Below are positions 1 through 61,603 of a stretch of 64,000 nt of DNA, piece by piece. A program made the translations under genes and the position numbers. The DNA is from Pseudomonas versuta. Lineage in GTDB: Bacteria; Pseudomonadota; Gammaproteobacteria; Pseudomonadales; Pseudomonadaceae. Where the stretch lies: positions 4,854,001 to 4,918,000 of the forward strand of contig NZ_CP012676.1 of NCBI RefSeq assembly GCF_001294575.1, in the 5' to 3' direction. Numbering within the stretch: the first letter of the stretch is position 1; every line of letters starts with the position of its first letter. A model generated the notes under the pieces. That model had not been told where the DNA came from. It ran no database searches and was given only the letters and a program-made list of their open reading frames with translations.

Positions 1-1100
1 CCGCTGGCGCCGAGGATCGGCACTCCGCTGGGTGTTGCAGGGCGCATGCCAGCCCACTCGATGGCGTCGTCATAGTTGCCGGCATCAGGGAAGGTGCTGG
101 CGGCCAGTTGGCGCATTTGCGCCAGGCGCCTGGGGTCCAGGGAGGCGTCGAAACCGACGATGTCGACCATGGCAGCAATCCGTAATTGCTCGCCAATACG
201 GGCGTAGACGATCTTGCGGTCGTAATCGGTGATGCTCGCGTTCGGCGCTTTTTGCGGGTCGCTCAGGGGCAGGGTCAGGCTGTAGCCCTTGAGCGGGTAG
301 AGCGGCAAGTTCAACCCCGGCAAGCTCAGGGCCGGGCTGTTGTGCCCTGCTGCGAGCACCAGTTGATCAACAGGCAAATGCTCATCGCCCATTTGTACGG
401 CACTGACTGCGCCGTTGGCGTGATGGATACGGGTGACGGTTTTCCCCAGCAAAAAGGTGCAGCGCCCGCTCGCTTGCAGATGGGCGAGCAACTGTTGGCA
501 GAACCCATGGCAATCGCCGACTTCCTCGCCGGGGGTATAGATGCCGCCGATAAACGCCGAGTCCTTCAGGCCTGGCTCAAGGGTTGCGCATTCGCTTGCA
601 GACAGTGCTTGTTGAAATGAACTGTGGGCAACTTTGGCCCGCGCCTTGTCGAAGCTGCCCGGGTTGCGGAAGGTCACCAGCTTGCCGTTGCACCGCCATT
701 CAAAACCGCTTAATTGATCTTCTTCGCGCCATTGCTGCAAGGTGGTCTGGCTCAGGAGTGCCAGGCGCAGCAAGTGCGCGCCATTGCGCTGATTCACCGA
801 GCCCCGGCACGCCGCGATAAATGACGCCATCCAGCGCCATTGAGCCGGGTCCATGCGTGGTCGCAACTTGAGTGGCGAGTCACTGCGCAGCATCCAGCCC
901 ATCGCCTGCCAGGGCACCCCGGCATCGGCCAGTGGTGCCACATAGCGGTAGGAAAGCTGGCCGCCATTGGCGAAGCTGGTCTGACTGCCGAGCGTTGGCC
1001 GGGCTTCGATCACGCTCACTTCAAAGCCGTCGCGCACCAGCGCATACGCCGTTGCCAGCCCGATAACGCCACCGCCGATGATGCAAACCCGCTGTCCCAT
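1..1100 (-). CDS. D-amino acid dehydrogenase-like FAD oxidoreductase (3' end outside window)
   Basis: About 366 codons are visible; the C-terminus runs off the left edge. The protein opens with the dinucleotide-binding motif GGGVIGLATAYAL and has SFANGGQLSYRYVAPLA at about residues 40-56, a signature of the DadA family (D-amino acid dehydrogenases, membrane-associated, passing electrons to quinones). DadA proteins are usually a little over 400 residues, so only a short tail should be missing. The start at 1100 places the Rossmann motif at the N-terminus. It is divergent from a LysR gene 108 bp away, which probably regulates it. Substrate cannot be fixed; it may be a paralogue rather than the alanine-catabolic DadA. 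Confidence 0.85.
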   Translation of the reverse strand, partial: MGQRVCIIGGGVIGLATAYALVRDGFEVSVIEARPTLGSQTSFANGGQLSYRYVAPLADAGVPWQAMGWMLRSDSPLKLRPRMDPAQWRWMASFIAACRGSVNQRNGAHLLRLALLSQTTLQQWREEDQLSGFEWRCNGKLVTFRNPGSFDKARAKVAHSSFQQALSASECATLEPGLKDSAFIGGIYTPGEEVGDCHGFCQQLLAHLQASGRCTFLLGKTVTRIHHANGAVSAVQMGDEHLPVDQLVLAAGHNSPALSLPGLNLPLYPLKGYSLTLPLSDPQKAPNASITDYDRKIVYARIGEQLRIAAMVDIVGFDASLDPRRLAQMRQLAASTFPDAGNYDDAIEWAGMRPATPSGVPILGAS

Positions 1101-55604: not shown

Positions 55605-57548
55605 ATGCTCAATATTGTTCTCCCTGTATTGTTATTCGCAGCTCTGGGGCTGGCCGTCATCGGCGCCGTGCGGCGGATGCATATGTGGCGTCGTGGCCGC
55701 CCGGCCAGGGTCGATCTGCTCGGCGGCCTGCTGGCCATGCCCCGGCGCTACATGGTCGACCTGCACCACGTAGTGGCCCGCGATAAATACATGGCCAATA
55801 CCCACGTTGCCACCGCCGGGGGCTTTGTACTGGCGGCGTTGCTGGCGATTCTGGTGCATGGCCTGGGGCTGCATAACCGCATCCTCGGCTACGCCCTGCT
55901 GGTTGCCACGGCGCTGATGTTTGTGGGCGCGCTCTTCGTGTTCAAACGTCGCCTCAACCCACCGGCCCGCCTGTCCAAAGGCCCGTGGATGCGCCTGCCG
56001 AAAAGCCTGCTGGCATTCTCGCTGAGCTTTTTTATCCTCACCCTGCCGGTCGCCGGTGTGCTGCCCCAGGACTTTGGCGGCTGGTTGCTGGCAGTGCTGC
56101 TGGGGGCGGGAGTAGTGTGGGGTGTGGCGGAACTGTTTTTTGGCATGACCTGGGGCGGGCCGATGAAACACGCCTTCGCCGGGGCTTTGCACCTGGCCTG
56201 GCATCGGCGCGCCGAGCGCTTTGGCGGTGGTCGGTCCACCGGCTTGAAACCCTTGGATCTGGAAGACCACAGTGCGCCACTGGGGGTGGAAAAACCCAAG
56301 GATTTCACCTGGAACCAATTGCTGGGTTTTGACGCCTGCGTGCAATGCGGCAAGTGCGAAGCGGCGTGTCCGGCCTACGCTGCGGGCCAGCCGTTGAACC
56401 CGAAAAAGCTGATTCAGGACATGGTGGTGGGGCTCGCGGGCGGCACCGATGCGCACTTTGCCGGCAGCCCGTACCCGGGCAAGCCCATTGGCGAGCATGC
56501 TGGCAATCCGCATCAACCGATCGTTAACGGCCTGGTGGATGCGGACACCCTGTGGTCCTGCACCACCTGCCGTGCCTGTGTTGAAGAGTGTCCGATGATG
56601 ATTGAGCACGTGGACGCCATCGTCGATATGCGCCGCTTCCTGACCCTGGAAAAAGGTGCAACGCCGAACAACGGGGCCCAGGTGCTGGACAACCTGATCG
56701 CCACCGACAACCCCGGCGGTTTTGCCCCGGGCGGGCGGATGAACTGGGCCGCAGATCTGAATCTTGATCTGATGCGCGATAAACCTTCTGTGGACGTGCT
56801 GTTCTGGGTTGGCGATGGCGCCTTCGACATGCGCAACCAGCGCACCCTGCGCTCATTCGTCAAAGTGCTGAAAGCGGGTGGCGTCGACTTTGCGGTCCTG
56901 GGCCTCGAAGAGCGTGACAGCGGTGACGTGGCCCGGCGCCTTGGTGACGAAGCGACCTTTCAGGCATTGGCCAGGCGCAATATCCAGACCCTGGGACAAT
57001 ACCGCTTCAATCGCATCGTGACCTGCGACCCCCACAGTTTTCATGTTTTGCAAAACGAATATGGCGCCTTTGGCGGTGAGTACCGGGTGCAGCATCACAG
57101 CACTTACATGGCCGAGCTGATCAGTCTCGGCACGCTTGCCTTGAAGGCGGATACGGGCGGCAGCGTGACCTATCACGACCCCTGTTATCTGGGCCGCTAC
57201 AACGGTGAATACGAGGCACCCCGCGCGGTATTGCGCGCCCTGGGGATTGAGGTCAAAGAGATGCAGCGCTCGGGCTTTCGCTCGCGCTGCTGTGGCGGTG
57301 GCGGCGGTGCGCCGATTACTGACATTCCCGGCAAGCAGCGGATTCCCGACATGCGCATGGACGATATCCGCGAGACGGGCGCCGAGCGCGTGGCTGTAGG
57401 TTGCCCGCAATGCACGGCGATGCTCGAAGGCGTAGTCGAGCCGCGTCCACAGATCAAGGATATTGCCGAACTGGTGGCTGAGGCCTTGATCGAACATATA
57501 GTGCCCGCCAAAGCGGCCAGACGGGCAGCCCCGGAGGTAATTGCATGA
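55605..57548 (+). CDS. dgcB: Dimethylglycine demethylase subunit B (membrane Fe-S protein)
   Basis: 647 residues from the ATG at 55605 (GGGAG upstream). Four or five N-terminal membrane helices (1-~190) are followed by two 4Fe-4S motifs, CVQCGKCEAACP from Cys245 and CTTCRACVEECP from Cys319, then a CCG domain (YHDPCYLGRYN, RCCGGGGG) as in heterodisulfide reductase-like and ETF-linked proteins. It probably relays electrons from DgcA/ETF to the quinone pool. Its stop overlaps the etfA start by 4 bp (ATGA). Confidence 0.92.
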   Translation: MLNIVLPVLLFAALGLAVIGAVRRMHMWRRGRPARVDLLGGLLAMPRRYMVDLHHVVARDKYMANTHVATAGGFVLAALLAILVHGLGLHNRILGYALLVATALMFVGALFVFKRRLNPPARLSKGPWMRLPKSLLAFSLSFFILTLPVAGVLPQDFGGWLLAVLLGAGVVWGVAELFFGMTWGGPMKHAFAGALHLAWHRRAERFGGGRSTGLKPLDLEDHSAPLGVEKPKDFTWNQLLGFDACVQCGKCEAACPAYAAGQPLNPKKLIQDMVVGLAGGTDAHFAGSPYPGKPIGEHAGNPHQPIVNGLVDADTLWSCTTCRACVEECPMMIEHVDAIVDMRRFLTLEKGATPNNGAQVLDNLIATDNPGGFAPGGRMNWAADLNLDLMRDKPSVDVLFWVGDGAFDMRNQRTLRSFVKVLKAGGVDFAVLGLEERDSGDVARRLGDEATFQALARRNIQTLGQYRFNRIVTCDPHSFHVLQNEYGAFGGEYRVQHHSTYMAELISLGTLALKADTGGSVTYHDPCYLGRYNGEYEAPRAVLRALGIEVKEMQRSGFRSRCCGGGGGAPITDIPGKQRIPDMRMDDIRETGAERVAVGCPQCTAMLEGVVEPRPQIKDIAELVAEALIEHIVPAKAARRAAPEVIA

Positions 57549-58756
57549 GTGACATTATTCGCCGCGACCCGCGTGCCGAGTGGATTGCCCGCAATCGCCT
57601 GCATCCTCTGCACGTCGCCACGCAACCGCTACAAACCCGCTGGATGGGGCCAAACGGCGTGCTGCGCAAGAATGTGCATGGCCACGGGTTTATCGGCCCC
57701 AACGGTATCAAGCGAATTGACCGCAGTGGCGCGCAGCAGGGCGGTACGACCAAACGCGTGGCCAGTGTTGAAGTGCAATTACCCCTGCATCAGGTGCCGG
57801 CGCCAGCGTTTTATATCTGCGTGGTGCCGGACATGGTCGGTGGCCGTCTCGGCAGTCATGACCGCGACTTGCTGGGCCTGGCCCGGCAGTTGGCGGGCAG
57901 CGACGGCGCGGTGCTGGCAGTGGTGTTTGGCGAGTGCAAAGAAACGGCCTTTGCCAGGGCAGGGGTGGATCGTTTGTTGTTACTCGATAGCGAAGGTTAT
58001 GCACCGGAGCAACGGGTTTACGATTTACGGGCTGTGGATAACCAGTTCGCCCCCAAACACTGGTTGCTGCCCGACAGCCGCAATGGCGGCGCAGAGTTGG
58101 GCCGCCGCTTTGCTGCGAGCCTGGGCCAGCGCCCGGCCACGCGGGTGTGGCAGATCAAGGACGGAGCCTGTTTGGGACGCGCCGGGGCCGGTCTGCAGGA
58201 TCTGGCGCAGCCGTTACCAAGGTTGATCCTGGCGGCTGCCGAGTGCGCCGAGCCGGTCAGCGAAACCCGGCATGAAGCATTGGCGGTGCAGTTATCCACA
58301 GACGCGCCGCGTTGCTTGGCCCGTATCGAAGACCTGGGTGCAGTTGAGGTCGATCCGGCAGCGATTCCTATGGCCGAAGCGGAATTTATCCTCAGCGGCG
58401 GTAACGGGGTTAAGGACTGGGGACTATTCCACAGGGCGGCGGCGGCGCTGGGCGCCACCGAAGGTGCATCAAGGGTGGCGGTGGACGACGGCTTTATGGG
58501 CCGGGAGCGTCAGGTCGGGGCCAGCGGCACCTGGGTCACGGCCCGGGTGTACGTGGCGGTCGGCATTAGCGGTGCAATCCAGCACCTGCAAGGGATCGGC
58601 GCATGCGACAAGGTGGTGGCGATCAATCTTGATCCGGGCTGCGACATGATCAAACGCGCTGACCTTTCTGTGATCGGCGAGGGTGGTGCGATTCTCGAAG
58701 CACTGACCGCCGCTGTGGATAACTGGCGCCAGGGCGCCAGACGCGATGCCGCCTGA
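57545..58756 (+). CDS. etfA: Electron transfer flavoprotein alpha subunit (dgc-associated)
   Basis: 403 residues, long for the family. The C-terminal FAD domain is typical (ILSGGNGVKDWGLFHRAAAALG; RQVGASGTWVTARVYVAVGISGAIQHLQGI). The first ~80 residues (DIIRRDPRAEWIARNRLHPL) are an extension not found in housekeeping EtfA of about 310 residues and may dock DgcA or DgcB. Three perfect DnaA boxes (58033, 58292, 58714) lie inside this coding region. Confidence 0.9.
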   Translation: MSDIIRRDPRAEWIARNRLHPLHVATQPLQTRWMGPNGVLRKNVHGHGFIGPNGIKRIDRSGAQQGGTTKRVASVEVQLPLHQVPAPAFYICVVPDMVGGRLGSHDRDLLGLARQLAGSDGAVLAVVFGECKETAFARAGVDRLLLLDSEGYAPEQRVYDLRAVDNQFAPKHWLLPDSRNGGAELGRRFAASLGQRPATRVWQIKDGACLGRAGAGLQDLAQPLPRLILAAAECAEPVSETRHEALAVQLSTDAPRCLARIEDLGAVEVDPAAIPMAEAEFILSGGNGVKDWGLFHRAAAALGATEGASRVAVDDGFMGRERQVGASGTWVTARVYVAVGISGAIQHLQGIGACDKVVAINLDPGCDMIKRADLSVIGEGGAILEALTAAVDNWRQGARRDAA

Positions 58757-58770
58757 TTGACCTAAACCCC

Positions 58771-58833
58771 CTGTAGGAGCGAGCTTGTCTCGCGAGCTTT
58801 TAAACAGATCGCGAGGCAAGCTCGCTCCTACAG
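58771..58833. repeat. REPIN (TGTAGGAGCGAGC type)
   Basis: Inverted CTGTAGGAGCGAGCTTG and CAAGCTCGCTCCTACAG arms between etfA and etfB. Confidence 0.9.
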
Positions 58834-58860
58834 ACTGTTTACAGTTTTGGAGATTCGCTT

Positions 58861-59631
58861 ATGACCATTGCCACCGTTGCTCTGGTTTCAATCGGTGCCC
58901 ACCCGGCTTCCGGCCGGGCCCGGCGCGCTGAACAGGATGCCCGGGCTGTCGAGCTCGGCCTCCAGCTGGCTGGGGATAACCTGCATGTTCTGCACGCAGG
59001 TAACCCCCACGAACTGGCGCTGCGTGCGTATCTGGGCATGGGCCTGGACGAACTTCACGTGCTGGAACAGGCGGACGGCGACGATGCGCTGCCGGTATTG
59101 CGCGACTACATTCGGGAAGCCGGGGTGCAGGTGGTACTGACGGGCAGTCAGGCTGAAACCGGTGAAGGCTCGGGCATGCTGCCGTATCTGCTCGCAGAGC
59201 AACTGGGCTGGCCGTTGCTGGTGGGGGTGGCCCAGATCGAATCTATCCACAACGGTGTTGCCCTGGTGTTGCAGGCGTTGCCCCGCGGCCAGCGGCGCCG
59301 GCTCAAGGTGCGCCTGCCGTTTATGGCCACTGTGGATAACGCCGCCCCCAAGGCCCGACAAAGCGCGTATGGCCCGGCTACCCGTGGTGTGGTCGATGCC
59401 GAAGTGGTTGAGGTGATTGTCGACGAGTTATCCACAGTCGGTGTTTTCCAGCCTGCCAGGCCGCGGCCAAAGCGTCTCAAAGTGATCAGGGCCAAAAGCG
59501 GCGCCGACCGTATGAAAGCGGCGACAGCCAAGGCAGCGGGTGGTGGAGGACAAATACTCAAAGGCAAGAGCAGCGAAGAGTGTGCACAGGCGATTTTGAA
59601 GTTATTAATCGAAGAAGGCGTGGTGCGCTGA
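58861..59631 (+). CDS. etfB: Electron transfer flavoprotein beta subunit (dgc-associated)
   Basis: 256 residues of the EtfB fold (VALVSIGAHPASGRARRAEQDARAVELGLQL; VLTGSQAETGEGSGMLPYLLAEQLGWP with the AMP-site loop). It pairs with the preceding EtfA to accept electrons from DgcAB. A TTTGGAG ribosome site precedes the start. Two perfect DnaA boxes (59331, 59428) are embedded; the second uses a TTA leucine codon. Confidence 0.9.
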   Translation: MTIATVALVSIGAHPASGRARRAEQDARAVELGLQLAGDNLHVLHAGNPHELALRAYLGMGLDELHVLEQADGDDALPVLRDYIREAGVQVVLTGSQAETGEGSGMLPYLLAEQLGWPLLVGVAQIESIHNGVALVLQALPRGQRRRLKVRLPFMATVDNAAPKARQSAYGPATRGVVDAEVVEVIVDELSTVGVFQPARPRPKRLKVIRAKSGADRMKAATAKAAGGGGQILKGKSSEECAQAILKLLIEEGVVR

Positions 59632-59950
59632 GTTGCCCACAAAGTCTGTTAGCGCTTATGTGGATAAGTTGTTTGCTGTCGGCTAAGCGCTATATGGATC
59701 AAGGCTTTCAGGCTTCTGATCAAAAAACAACCAATTGCTGTAGTTATCCACTGCTGAGCGGTCAAACCCTTTAAAAATCGGGCCCTTAAAGGGTTTTCCA
59801 CAGAAAAGGCGTGCGGTGCATAAGTTGCGCACAATCTCTGTTGGCGGATATGTGGATAAGGTGTTTGCGGTTGCTTGCAGCCCATGTATCCCGTGGCCTG
59901 TAAGGTTTTGTACAAAAAACAACCAATCACCGTTTTCGGGATAACTTAGC
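59631..59950. repeat. 192-bp tandem duplication in the etfB-gbcA gap
   Basis: Two diverged copies about 120 bp long begin at 59631 and 59823. AGTTGC-CACAA, CTGTT-GCG, ATGTGGATAAG, TGTTTGC and CAAAAAACAACCAAT recur in the same order at a constant offset of 192 bp, each copy carrying a perfect DnaA box (59659, 59851). This gene-free gap is 497 bp and no coding sequence is credible in it. Confidence 0.8.
59764..59796. terminator. Perfect 11-bp AT-rich hairpin after etfB
   Basis: AAACCCTTTAA and TTAAAGGGTTT around an 11-base loop, between the two copies of the duplication and overlapping the DnaA-like site at 59794. It could end the dgc/etf transcript, though the stem is AT-rich. Confidence 0.4.
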
Positions 59951-60052
59951 CACTTCCCCACAATTACTGTGGGTGTGACTGTGGATAAGATGTTGGTGAA
60001 GGGCTGCGGGCCTTTGATTGTATGGGGTGTAGCCTGTTGGTTAAAAAATAGC

Positions 60053-60114
60053 CTGCAGGAGCGAGCTTGCCTCGCGAGATTTCAATCGTTCGCTTGAACA
60101 GCTCGCTCCTACAG
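60053..60114. repeat. REPIN (TGCAGGAGCGAGC type)
   Basis: Inverted CTGCAGGAGCGAGC and GCTCGCTCCTACAG arms 14 bp beyond the gbcA stop. Confidence 0.85.
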
Positions 60115-60128
60115 GTTTGGTCGGGCGG

Positions 60129-61421
60129 TTATTGGGCGACCACGCCTTTGAGGTACGGCGCCGGCGCCGCGCCCAGGTTGCTCAGCAAGCGCTCGCTGTA
60201 CCAGTCGACGAAGTTGACCACGCCAAACTCGTAGGTTTGCGAGTACGGCCCCGGCTGGTAGGCCACGGAGTTGATGCCGCGCTGGTTCTCTTCAGCCAGG
60301 CGCCGGTCCTGATTGTTGGTGGCGTCCCATACGTTACGCATGCGCTCCACGTCATAGTCCACGCCTTCCACTGCATCCTTGTGCACCAGCCATTTGGTGG
60401 TAACCATGGTTTCCTGGGCGCTGAGCGGCCATACGGTAAAGACGATGATGTGGTCGCCCATGCAGTGGTTCCATGAGTGCGGCAGGTGCAGGATGCGCAT
60501 CGAGCCCAGGTCCGGGTTTTTAATCCGGCCCATGAGTTTTGCACAGCCCTGTTTGCCATCCAGGGTCATCGACACGGTGCCCTTGAGCAGCGGCATGCGC
60601 ACGATGCGGTTGCGCAGGCCGAAGCTGGCGTGGGCGTAGGGGATTTTTTCCGCATCCCAGGCCGCTGCCGAGGCTGCCACGTGATCCTTGAATGCCTGGT
60701 CGGCCCGGGGGTCGGTGACGTCGTCCCATTCCAGCAGGGTCTTGAGCAACTCGGGGTGCGATGCGTTGCAGTGGTAGCACTCGCGGTTGTTTTCCAGCAC
60801 CAGTTTCCAGTTGGCCTTTTCCACCAGGGTGGTATGAATCGCCACCTTGGTGTTTTCCATGTCGTAGGGTTCCATGTAGTGGTTCAGCGTGGCCAGGAAC
60901 TCGTCGATTGCGGGTGGGTTCTCGGCCAGGCTGATAAAGATGTAGCCCCCTGCGGTTTTCACGTTCACCGGCTTGAGCCCGTATTGCTTCATGTCAAATT
61001 CGGCGCCCATCTCGGTGCCGGCAAACAGCAGGCGGCCATCGAGTTCATAGGTCCACTGGTGGTAATGGCACACCAGCTTGGCGACCTTGCCCTTCTCGGA
61101 AGTGCATAACCGCGAGCCGCGATGACGGCATACGTTATGAAAAGCATGGACCTGACCCTCGGCACCGCGAATCACGATGATCGGGTTGTTGCCCACTTGC
61201 AGGGTCAGAAAATTGCCCTTGGTCGGGATCTCGCAGGTCATGCCTGCAATCAGCCACTCCTTCTGAAAGATCTCCTGCATGTCGATTTCGAACAGGCGCT
61301 CGTCGTTATAAAACGGCTGCGGCAGCGAAAAAGTACGCTCGCGGTTCTGCAACATCTCGGCGGTGGCCTTGCGTGCGGGTTCCAGTGGATCGCCCAGGCT
61401 CAGGGTTGCGGTGATGTCCAT
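60129..61421 (-). CDS. gbcA: Glycine betaine monooxygenase, oxygenase subunit
   Basis: 430 residues from the ATG at 61421 (GAGGATT upstream). The Rieske 2Fe-2S motif is C98-R-H100 and C118-HY-H121, and the mononuclear-iron segment ENNRECYHCNASHPEL follows. It is a Rieske oxygenase that demethylates glycine betaine to dimethylglycine and formaldehyde, working with GbcB. It is divergent from gbcB across a 282-bp regulatory gap. Confidence 0.95.
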   Translation of the reverse strand: MDITATLSLGDPLEPARKATAEMLQNRERTFSLPQPFYNDERLFEIDMQEIFQKEWLIAGMTCEIPTKGNFLTLQVGNNPIIVIRGAEGQVHAFHNVCRHRGSRLCTSEKGKVAKLVCHYHQWTYELDGRLLFAGTEMGAEFDMKQYGLKPVNVKTAGGYIFISLAENPPAIDEFLATLNHYMEPYDMENTKVAIHTTLVEKANWKLVLENNRECYHCNASHPELLKTLLEWDDVTDPRADQAFKDHVAASAAAWDAEKIPYAHASFGLRNRIVRMPLLKGTVSMTLDGKQGCAKLMGRIKNPDLGSMRILHLPHSWNHCMGDHIIVFTVWPLSAQETMVTTKWLVHKDAVEGVDYDVERMRNVWDATNNQDRRLAEENQRGINSVAYQPGPYSQTYEFGVVNFVDWYSERLLSNLGAAPAPYLKGVVAQ

Positions 61422-61603
61422 CGTTGTAATCCTCATGGCCATTGTATGTGGCCCGAAAGTGGCTGCTCAGGGGTGCGACGCAAGGCAAAGCAATTAACGC
61501 TATCAGTGGCGCTGAGTGTGCGATCAGGGCGTGCCGATGCCATATCTGCGGGCGACATGGCCCAATCTGTTCCCGACGCGCCAGCCCCTGTTTCAAGGGG
61601 CTG

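Follow-up and report, generated by a model that had tools for sequence, protein, structure and literature searches.

A candidate DARS-type DnaA reactivation array downstream of etfB in Pseudomonas versuta

Why should the densest cluster of DnaA boxes in a Pseudomonas genome lie over two electron transfer flavoprotein genes, at a distance from dnaA? The cluster occupies 1.96 kb of a 64-kb stretch of Pseudomonas versuta DNA (contig NZ_CP012676.1, positions 4,854,001 to 4,918,000; hereafter the window), beginning in an etfA-like gene, continuing through an etfB-like gene and ending in the intergenic region between etfB and an oxygenase gene. The intergenic boxes belong to a repeated unit built like the DnaA-reactivating sequences (DARS) of Escherichia coli, and the etfB-oxygenase intergenic region is probably a Fis-assisted array for the reactivation of ADP-DnaA, with an adjoining DnaA-binding reservoir. 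The array is placed with DARS by its architecture, from which we infer its function: predicted DnaA binding, nucleotide exchange and an effect on the timing of initiation.

The box cluster and its repeated intergenic unit

All eight exact DnaA boxes (TTATCCACA) that the first-pass annotation reported in the 1.96-kb interval are present where it had placed them: three in etfA, two in etfB (Table 1) and three in the intergenic region, starting at 59659, 59851 and 59980 on the minus strand. It had counted three near-matches as well; sites with one mismatch number five (58386, 58971, 59243, 59744 and 59794). Its claim of a density far above chance holds, the window containing 10 exact boxes against 0.29 expected from dinucleotide shuffles, none of 100 of which reached 10. 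When the genome was scanned (5,149,788 bases in one contig), 125 exact boxes were found, while the reversed pattern occurs 16 times. Of all 2-kb stretches, the etfAB cluster has the most, eight of the 125; the next-densest separate stretches hold five each, one upstream of and within dnaA and one at 4522636. No similar density was found elsewhere, the expected oriC region included, and the cluster has the excess of consensus boxes over the rest of the genome that is expected of a DnaA titration locus. The dnaA gene is at 4,530,435 and the cluster is 383 kb away (0.149 of a replichore), so that the earlier description of the locus as near oriC is correct in the sense of ori-proximal but not of adjacent; the array does not stand at the chromosome origin next to dnaA as an oriC would.

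The structure around the intergenic boxes was resolved by comparison with 80 named Pseudomonas loci, fetched by etfB (the best 80 of 309 relatives, a choice biased towards near kin). Two or more exact boxes lie between -1400 and +1300 relative to the etfB start in every one of the 80 (reversed control, 0/80). Among the 267 boxes downstream of etfB in these loci, 137 have a convergent weak box, with at most two mismatches, exactly 17 bp away; the next-best spacing accounts for 50. The 17-bp stretch holds a third, degenerate box (box II) after a near-invariant C (229/231 units), and this box is recognised mainly by its place and by the motif CTGT, near-invariant in the 231 units. The core of a unit consists of box I (forward), 5 bp, box II (reversed), 3 bp and box III (reversed), with mismatches in boxes I and II. 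Under a looser rule for box I, 68 of the 80 loci have one to six cores after etfB, and 40 of the 68 have four. The cores of the window are spaced by 192 and 129 bp (from their coordinates), and the commonest repeat period in relatives is 182 bp. The weak partner boxes are conserved in the array units. The first-pass annotation had not noticed the repeated composite unit to which the intergenic boxes belong, nor how much of the signal comes from their weak partners.

A Fis-type site stands at a fixed distance from the core. By a rule of our own, a Fis-type 15-mer starts 50 or 51 bp downstream of box III in 228 of 279 units (196/243 from the named loci, 3/3 from the window and 29/33 from other loci), compared with a mean of 1.46 and a maximum of 5 in shuffles, which were scored over +46 to +56. 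The published Fis consensus, GnnYAnnnnnTRnnC in the available part of its source (PMC4245941), is matched in full at +50/+51 in 92 of the 279 units (77 named, 1 window, 14 other) versus 0.64 in shuffles, and with one missed position in 257 (223, 3 and 31) versus 8.22. The genome encodes a Fis homologue (59% identity), and the sequence match suggests that the units carry the accessory Fis site of a DARS.

Two other features of the units were noted. TGTT two bases after box III (2-5 bases after) is near-invariant in the etfB array units of the 80 named loci (L033-L112) but is not so constant at other loci; it is possibly a fourth weak box. Pseudomonas units also have a dyad approximating CTGnAGGCC-N11-GGCTTnCAG, which spans 15-43 bp after box III with its centre at +29. 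Its reading as a hairpin was dropped, pairing being near the column-composition expectation in both sets of units, and the dyad does not reach significance in 21 non-Pseudomonas cores (56 pairs versus 49.7 in shuffles).

Codon constraint in etfA and etfB

The five boxes in coding sequence read as first described: the two on the plus strand encode LST with a TTA codon, and the three on the minus strand (A/T)VDN. In a codon alignment of 81 loci (the 80 named loci and the window), the TTA-TCC-ACA box of etfA is found in 75, all of them belonging to the 78 with the peptide intact; from the codon usage of etfA and etfB, 0.0008 per row is expected. The codon window that contains it is the most synonymously conserved of etfA, scoring 11.27 against a mean of 1.69 (standard deviation 1.23). 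Three of the five coding boxes are kept in most of the 81 loci and two in few (Table 1). This synonymous-codon constraint supports the earlier suggestion of selection for the DNA site, to which the codon test and conservation across loci both point. Conservation of the boxes among relatives, which the first-pass annotation had proposed as a check, is seen for the cores after etfB and for three of the coding boxes, and in few loci for the other two.

The gap between etfA and etfB differs in length among relatives, judging by box offsets. Inverted repeats that we take to be of the repetitive extragenic palindromic (REP) kind lie between etfA and etfB (58760-58844) and just to the right of the array (approximately 60055-60115). 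The only Rfam matches of the region, three to models of eukaryotic microRNAs, are all below gathering scores and all on the repeat at 58760-58844, and were rejected as chance. In the interval 59500-60200, no intrinsic terminator was found, and one promoter-like site was found where 0.3 is expected. The oxygenase gene on the far side of the array is presumably gbcA-like.

Table 1. Coordinates of genes, DnaA boxes, cores and Fis-type sites in the window
Feature	Coordinates	Strand	Remarks
etfA-like gene (electron transfer flavoprotein alpha)	57545..58756	+	Pfam ETF, ETF_alpha; embedded DnaA boxes
Near-box TTATGCACC, etfA codons 151-154	57997..58005	+	codon window 150-153 is sixth in synonymous conservation among etfA 4-codon windows
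Exact box in etfA, AVDN	58033..58041	-	79/81 loci
Exact box in etfA, TTA TCC ACA = LST	58292..58300	+	75/81 loci; top synonymous-conservation window of etfA
Exact box, etfA 3' end (codon 390)	58714..58722	-	at same codon in only 5/81 loci
etfB-like gene	58861..59631	+	Pfam ETF; embedded DnaA boxes
One-mismatch box TTATCCCCA, etfB codons 37-40	58971..58979	-	in two top synonymous-conservation windows of etfB
Exact box in etfB, TVDN	59331..59339	-	56/81 loci
Exact box in etfB (codon 190), LST	59428..59436	+	only 8/81 loci
DARS-type core 1	59633..59667	+	TTGCCCACA-N5-TGTTAGCGC-N3-TGTGGATAA
Fis-type site GATCAAAAAACAACC	59718..59732		50 bp past core 1; misses one position of published consensus
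One-mismatch DnaA box TTATCCACT	59744..59752	+	between units
One-mismatch DnaA box TTTTCCACA	59794..59802	+	between units
DARS-type core 2	59825..59859	+	TTGCGCACA-N5-TGTTGGCGG-N3-TGTGGATAA
Fis-type site GTACAAAAAACAACC	59910..59924		50 bp past core 2; misses one position of published consensus
DARS-type core 3	59954..59988	+	TTCCCCACA-N5-TGTGGGTGT-N3-TGTGGATAA; one mismatch to strict pattern
Fis-type site GGTTAAAAAATAGCC	60039..60053		50 bp after core 3; meets published consensus
Rieske/ring-hydroxylating oxygenase gene	60129..61442	-	convergent; far side of array

Cores elsewhere in Pseudomonas and in other bacteria

Strict cores are present in 135 of 149 Pseudomonas genomes (this one included), with one to nine copies per positive genome and none for the reversed pattern. 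The P. versuta genome itself has 10 core matches with up to two mismatches (control, 0), similar units at other loci having escaped the first-pass annotation. Besides the etfB array (locus A), three loci recur in 20 regions that were hand-picked from the strict cores of other genomes: locus B beside a UPF0029 gene (8/8 fetched regions), locus C beside an ABC ATPase gene (5/5) and locus D beside an HI0933-like gene (6/6) and a deacetylase-like gene (5/6). Neighbours are shared with the P. versuta genome in 19 of the 20; the exception, L173, matched none of the loci. Further DARS-type units of this genome, at 33322, 3883961, 3884163 and 4002519, occupy loci common to relatives and have a Fis-type or T-rich site approximately 50 bp downstream.

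Two other box-rich regions of the genome were noted. Nine exact boxes in 3.4 kb (4520086-4523499), 7-10 kb upstream of the dnaA match, form a second ori-proximal box-rich region, one part of which has two boxes as a close inverted pair. Six exact boxes in 2.6 kb (4297519-4300137) lie approximately 230 kb from dnaA, and none of the six belongs to a DARS-type match with up to two mismatches.

In nine single-contig genomes (G034 was left out), the core loci are 0.12-0.31 of a replichore from dnaA; with loci of unfetched genomes labelled by motif likeness only, eight of the nine have A and D on the same arm with B or C on the opposite one, and G003 has B and D together on an arm. A tenth genome, G137, has a single core at 0.365 of a replichore that was not matched to loci A-D. 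Conserved gene order alone could explain these recurrent positions. The location of etfB was also compared with that of the cores, by eye, in 30 genomes where etfB was located and cores were listed (G070 was left out): 25 have a core within 13 kb, four of these 11-12 kb away.

Among the literature matches listed for DnaA, DARS and DnaA boxes in open-licence PubMed Central, no such locus is described for Pseudomonas. The repeat families R178 and R200 of strain SBW25 (PMC2718517), considered by their sizes and counts only, were set aside; that main text does not mention DnaA.

A general form of the core pattern was found in 104 of 274 Gammaproteobacteria genomes and in 30 of 150 genomes sampled across the phylum, with none for the control in either sample; both samples include the P. 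versuta genome, and some genomes are common to both. The 14 matches in 10 genomes are 76 kb to 1.6 Mb from dnaA and are therefore not beside it (dnaA was located in 12 genomes, G288 and G270 were left out, and distances are relative to dnaA, not oriC). In the same-class genomes G452, G477 and G507, the pattern finds cores that closely resemble E. coli DARS1 and DARS2. The 21 cores from outside Pseudomonas were drawn from 20 hand-picked genomes of 18 families. A relaxed Fis rule, set after the sequences had been seen, gave a site at +49 to +52 in 18 of the 21 (0.59 in shuffles); our strict rule gave 7 (0.08 in shuffles), and the published consensus 8 (0.04 in shuffles).

Competing explanations and comparison with known systems

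Reactivation of DnaA by DARS is established in E. coli. By analogy, DnaA would occupy the strong box III and the weaker boxes I and II, opposed and 5 bp apart, of each unit of approximately 100 bp; ADP-DnaA would meet head to head on the unit, lose its ADP, dissociate in the apo form and take up ATP again. In fast growth the unit would be activated by Fis at the site 50 bp downstream, and the boxes in etfA and etfB would serve as an adjoining DnaA-binding reservoir. In favour of this reading, all seven etf loci that have no listed core close by (G012, G063 and five genomes of the etfB comparison above) lack exact boxes throughout 8.5 kb, and G127, where a core is present, has seven in 8 kb.

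Several observations weigh against this reading. The Fis and core rules were fixed after the sequences had been inspected, and the published Fis consensus is fully matched by only one of the three window units, the others being one position short. The consensus of integration host factor (IHF), with at most one mismatch allowed, is not conserved in the 279 units (at most 11/246 and 6/33 at any one offset), and the accessory IHF site of DARS2, an element that needs IHF in E. coli, has no conserved counterpart in them; at +50 from the DARS2 core there is no match of the Fis type. Boxes I and II are crucial in DARS2, according to the available part of PMC4585315, while box II of the array is degenerate and poor (TGTTAGCGC, TGTTGGCGG, TGTGGGTGT). 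No core was found in the fetched downstream flank of 12 of the 80 named loci, three of which have flanks below 0.9 kb and nine of approximately 4 kb. These nine still carry coding boxes, so that the boxes and the array are not always together and coding boxes can be more than approximately 4 kb from any core. Five of the 30 genomes compared have no core near etfB. Finally, many of the boxes would also be explained by a pure DnaA sink.

Such a sink is the main rival, unlikely on balance yet to be taken seriously. The cluster would titrate DnaA by early-replicated high-affinity sites, or hydrolyse the ATP of ATP-DnaA as datA does, and so delay re-initiation. It is the densest exact-box cluster of the genome; its conserved coding boxes have no DARS geometry; and in eight complete genomes its distance from dnaA is 0.12-0.17 of a replichore, close to the relative position of E. 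coli datA (0.20, on the oriC coordinate that we assume for E. coli). Titration with ori-proximal box enrichment has been described in E. coli (PMC12371093, section 6). However, titration requires neither a fixed 5/3-bp core nor a Fis-type site at a fixed distance, the weak partner boxes are conserved, and IHF, required by datA in the available part of PMC4585315, has no conserved consensus in the units. Titration may coexist with the reactivation favoured here.

Little credence is given to a chromosome-organising nucleoprotein site of DnaA and Fis or an accessory replication origin, to which the G+C content of 46% (58-62% in the 4-kb bins of the window) would be suited and for which the dyad of the Pseudomonas units may bind another protein; oriC is expected at dnaA and the box-rich region preceding it, 383 kb away, and the core geometry is specifically DARS-like. 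It is very doubtful that DnaA here regulates transcription of the adjacent catabolic genes, presumably those of glycine-betaine catabolism. The array does adjoin etfAB and the Rieske oxygenase gene, and at other loci of this genome the units are flanked by co-oriented genes and might have a promoter role. Yet the array is downstream of two convergent genes, and promoter control is therefore unlikely; similar units stand beside the unrelated UPF0029, ABC ATPase, HI0933-like and deacetylase-like genes, and in four genomes the array is 11-12 kb from etfB. Chance, codon bias or a mobile repeat is scarcely credible: the units are tandem and Pseudomonas genomes have many intergenic repeats (in the available part of PMC2718517), but the idea is already contradicted by the genus-wide core scan (reversed control, 0/149 genomes), the offset of the Fis-type site and the codon test with its synonymous constraint in etfA, as well as by the one to nine strict copies per positive genome and the shared neighbours of 19 of 20 fetched regions.

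A wider proposal is put forward tentatively. DARS might be a widespread gammaproteobacterial cassette of approximately 100 bp, a three-box core with a Fis-type site near +50, and not an enterobacterial speciality; the initiation clock of Pseudomonas might then consist of several cassettes whose replichore positions recur, among them a tandem array with a DnaA reservoir in the codons of etfA and etfB. One statement in the available part of PMC4245941 limits the DARS2 core to relatives of E. coli. If the proposal is true, multi-copy DARS in Pseudomonas would show how a distant genus may recharge its initiator, and replication control would constrain the codons of metabolic genes. DARS-type elements may help to time chromosome copying in Pseudomonas and its relatives; the array offers defined 100-bp substrates, and the class-wide scan opens the evolution of initiation control to direct test.

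The first-pass annotation had likened the locus to datA or DARS, and it is the second likeness that stands, by box orientation, the 5- and 3-bp gaps and the Fis-type site at a fixed distance. DARS cores are characterised by box orientation and equal spacing, and ADP-DnaA molecules have been proposed to make contact head to head on their boxes I and II (PMC5742627 and PMC8682772, in the parts available). In E. coli K-12, both DARS1 and DARS2 consist of box I, 5 bp, box II reversed, 3 bp and box III reversed, with the opposed box I and the gaps of the array units; the DARS2 core was taken to be the copy near ygdT, chosen by geometry and by likeness to the cores of G452, G477 and G507. DARS1 (101 bp, between bioD and uvrB) further resembles the Pseudomonas units in its length of approximately 100 bp, in a relaxed Fis-type match at +51 and, as a single sequence, in its best dyad centred at +29. 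It differs in that its strong box is II instead of III, in being a single copy instead of a tandem, and in neighbours and chromosome position; its release of ADP without added factors, in the partial account available, is unlike the Fis-assisted reactivation proposed here. DARS2 (rppH-mutH region) has the same core geometry and involves Fis, but in the available part of its description it needs IHF and Fis sites within a 455-bp region, whereas the Fis-type site of Pseudomonas is fixed 50 bp from the core. The array has the genomic neighbours of neither. The datA locus is likewise an ori-proximal cluster of DnaA boxes; its IHF site between DnaA boxes 2 and 3 is required (PMC4585315, available part), and the datA reading was set aside because no IHF site is conserved in the array units, whose geometry is that of DARS. 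The box enrichment interpreted as titration in PMC12371093 is similarly concentrated towards oriC; that main text covers E. coli and Salmonella, without Pseudomonas, and the cluster described here is distinguished by its internal repeated architecture.

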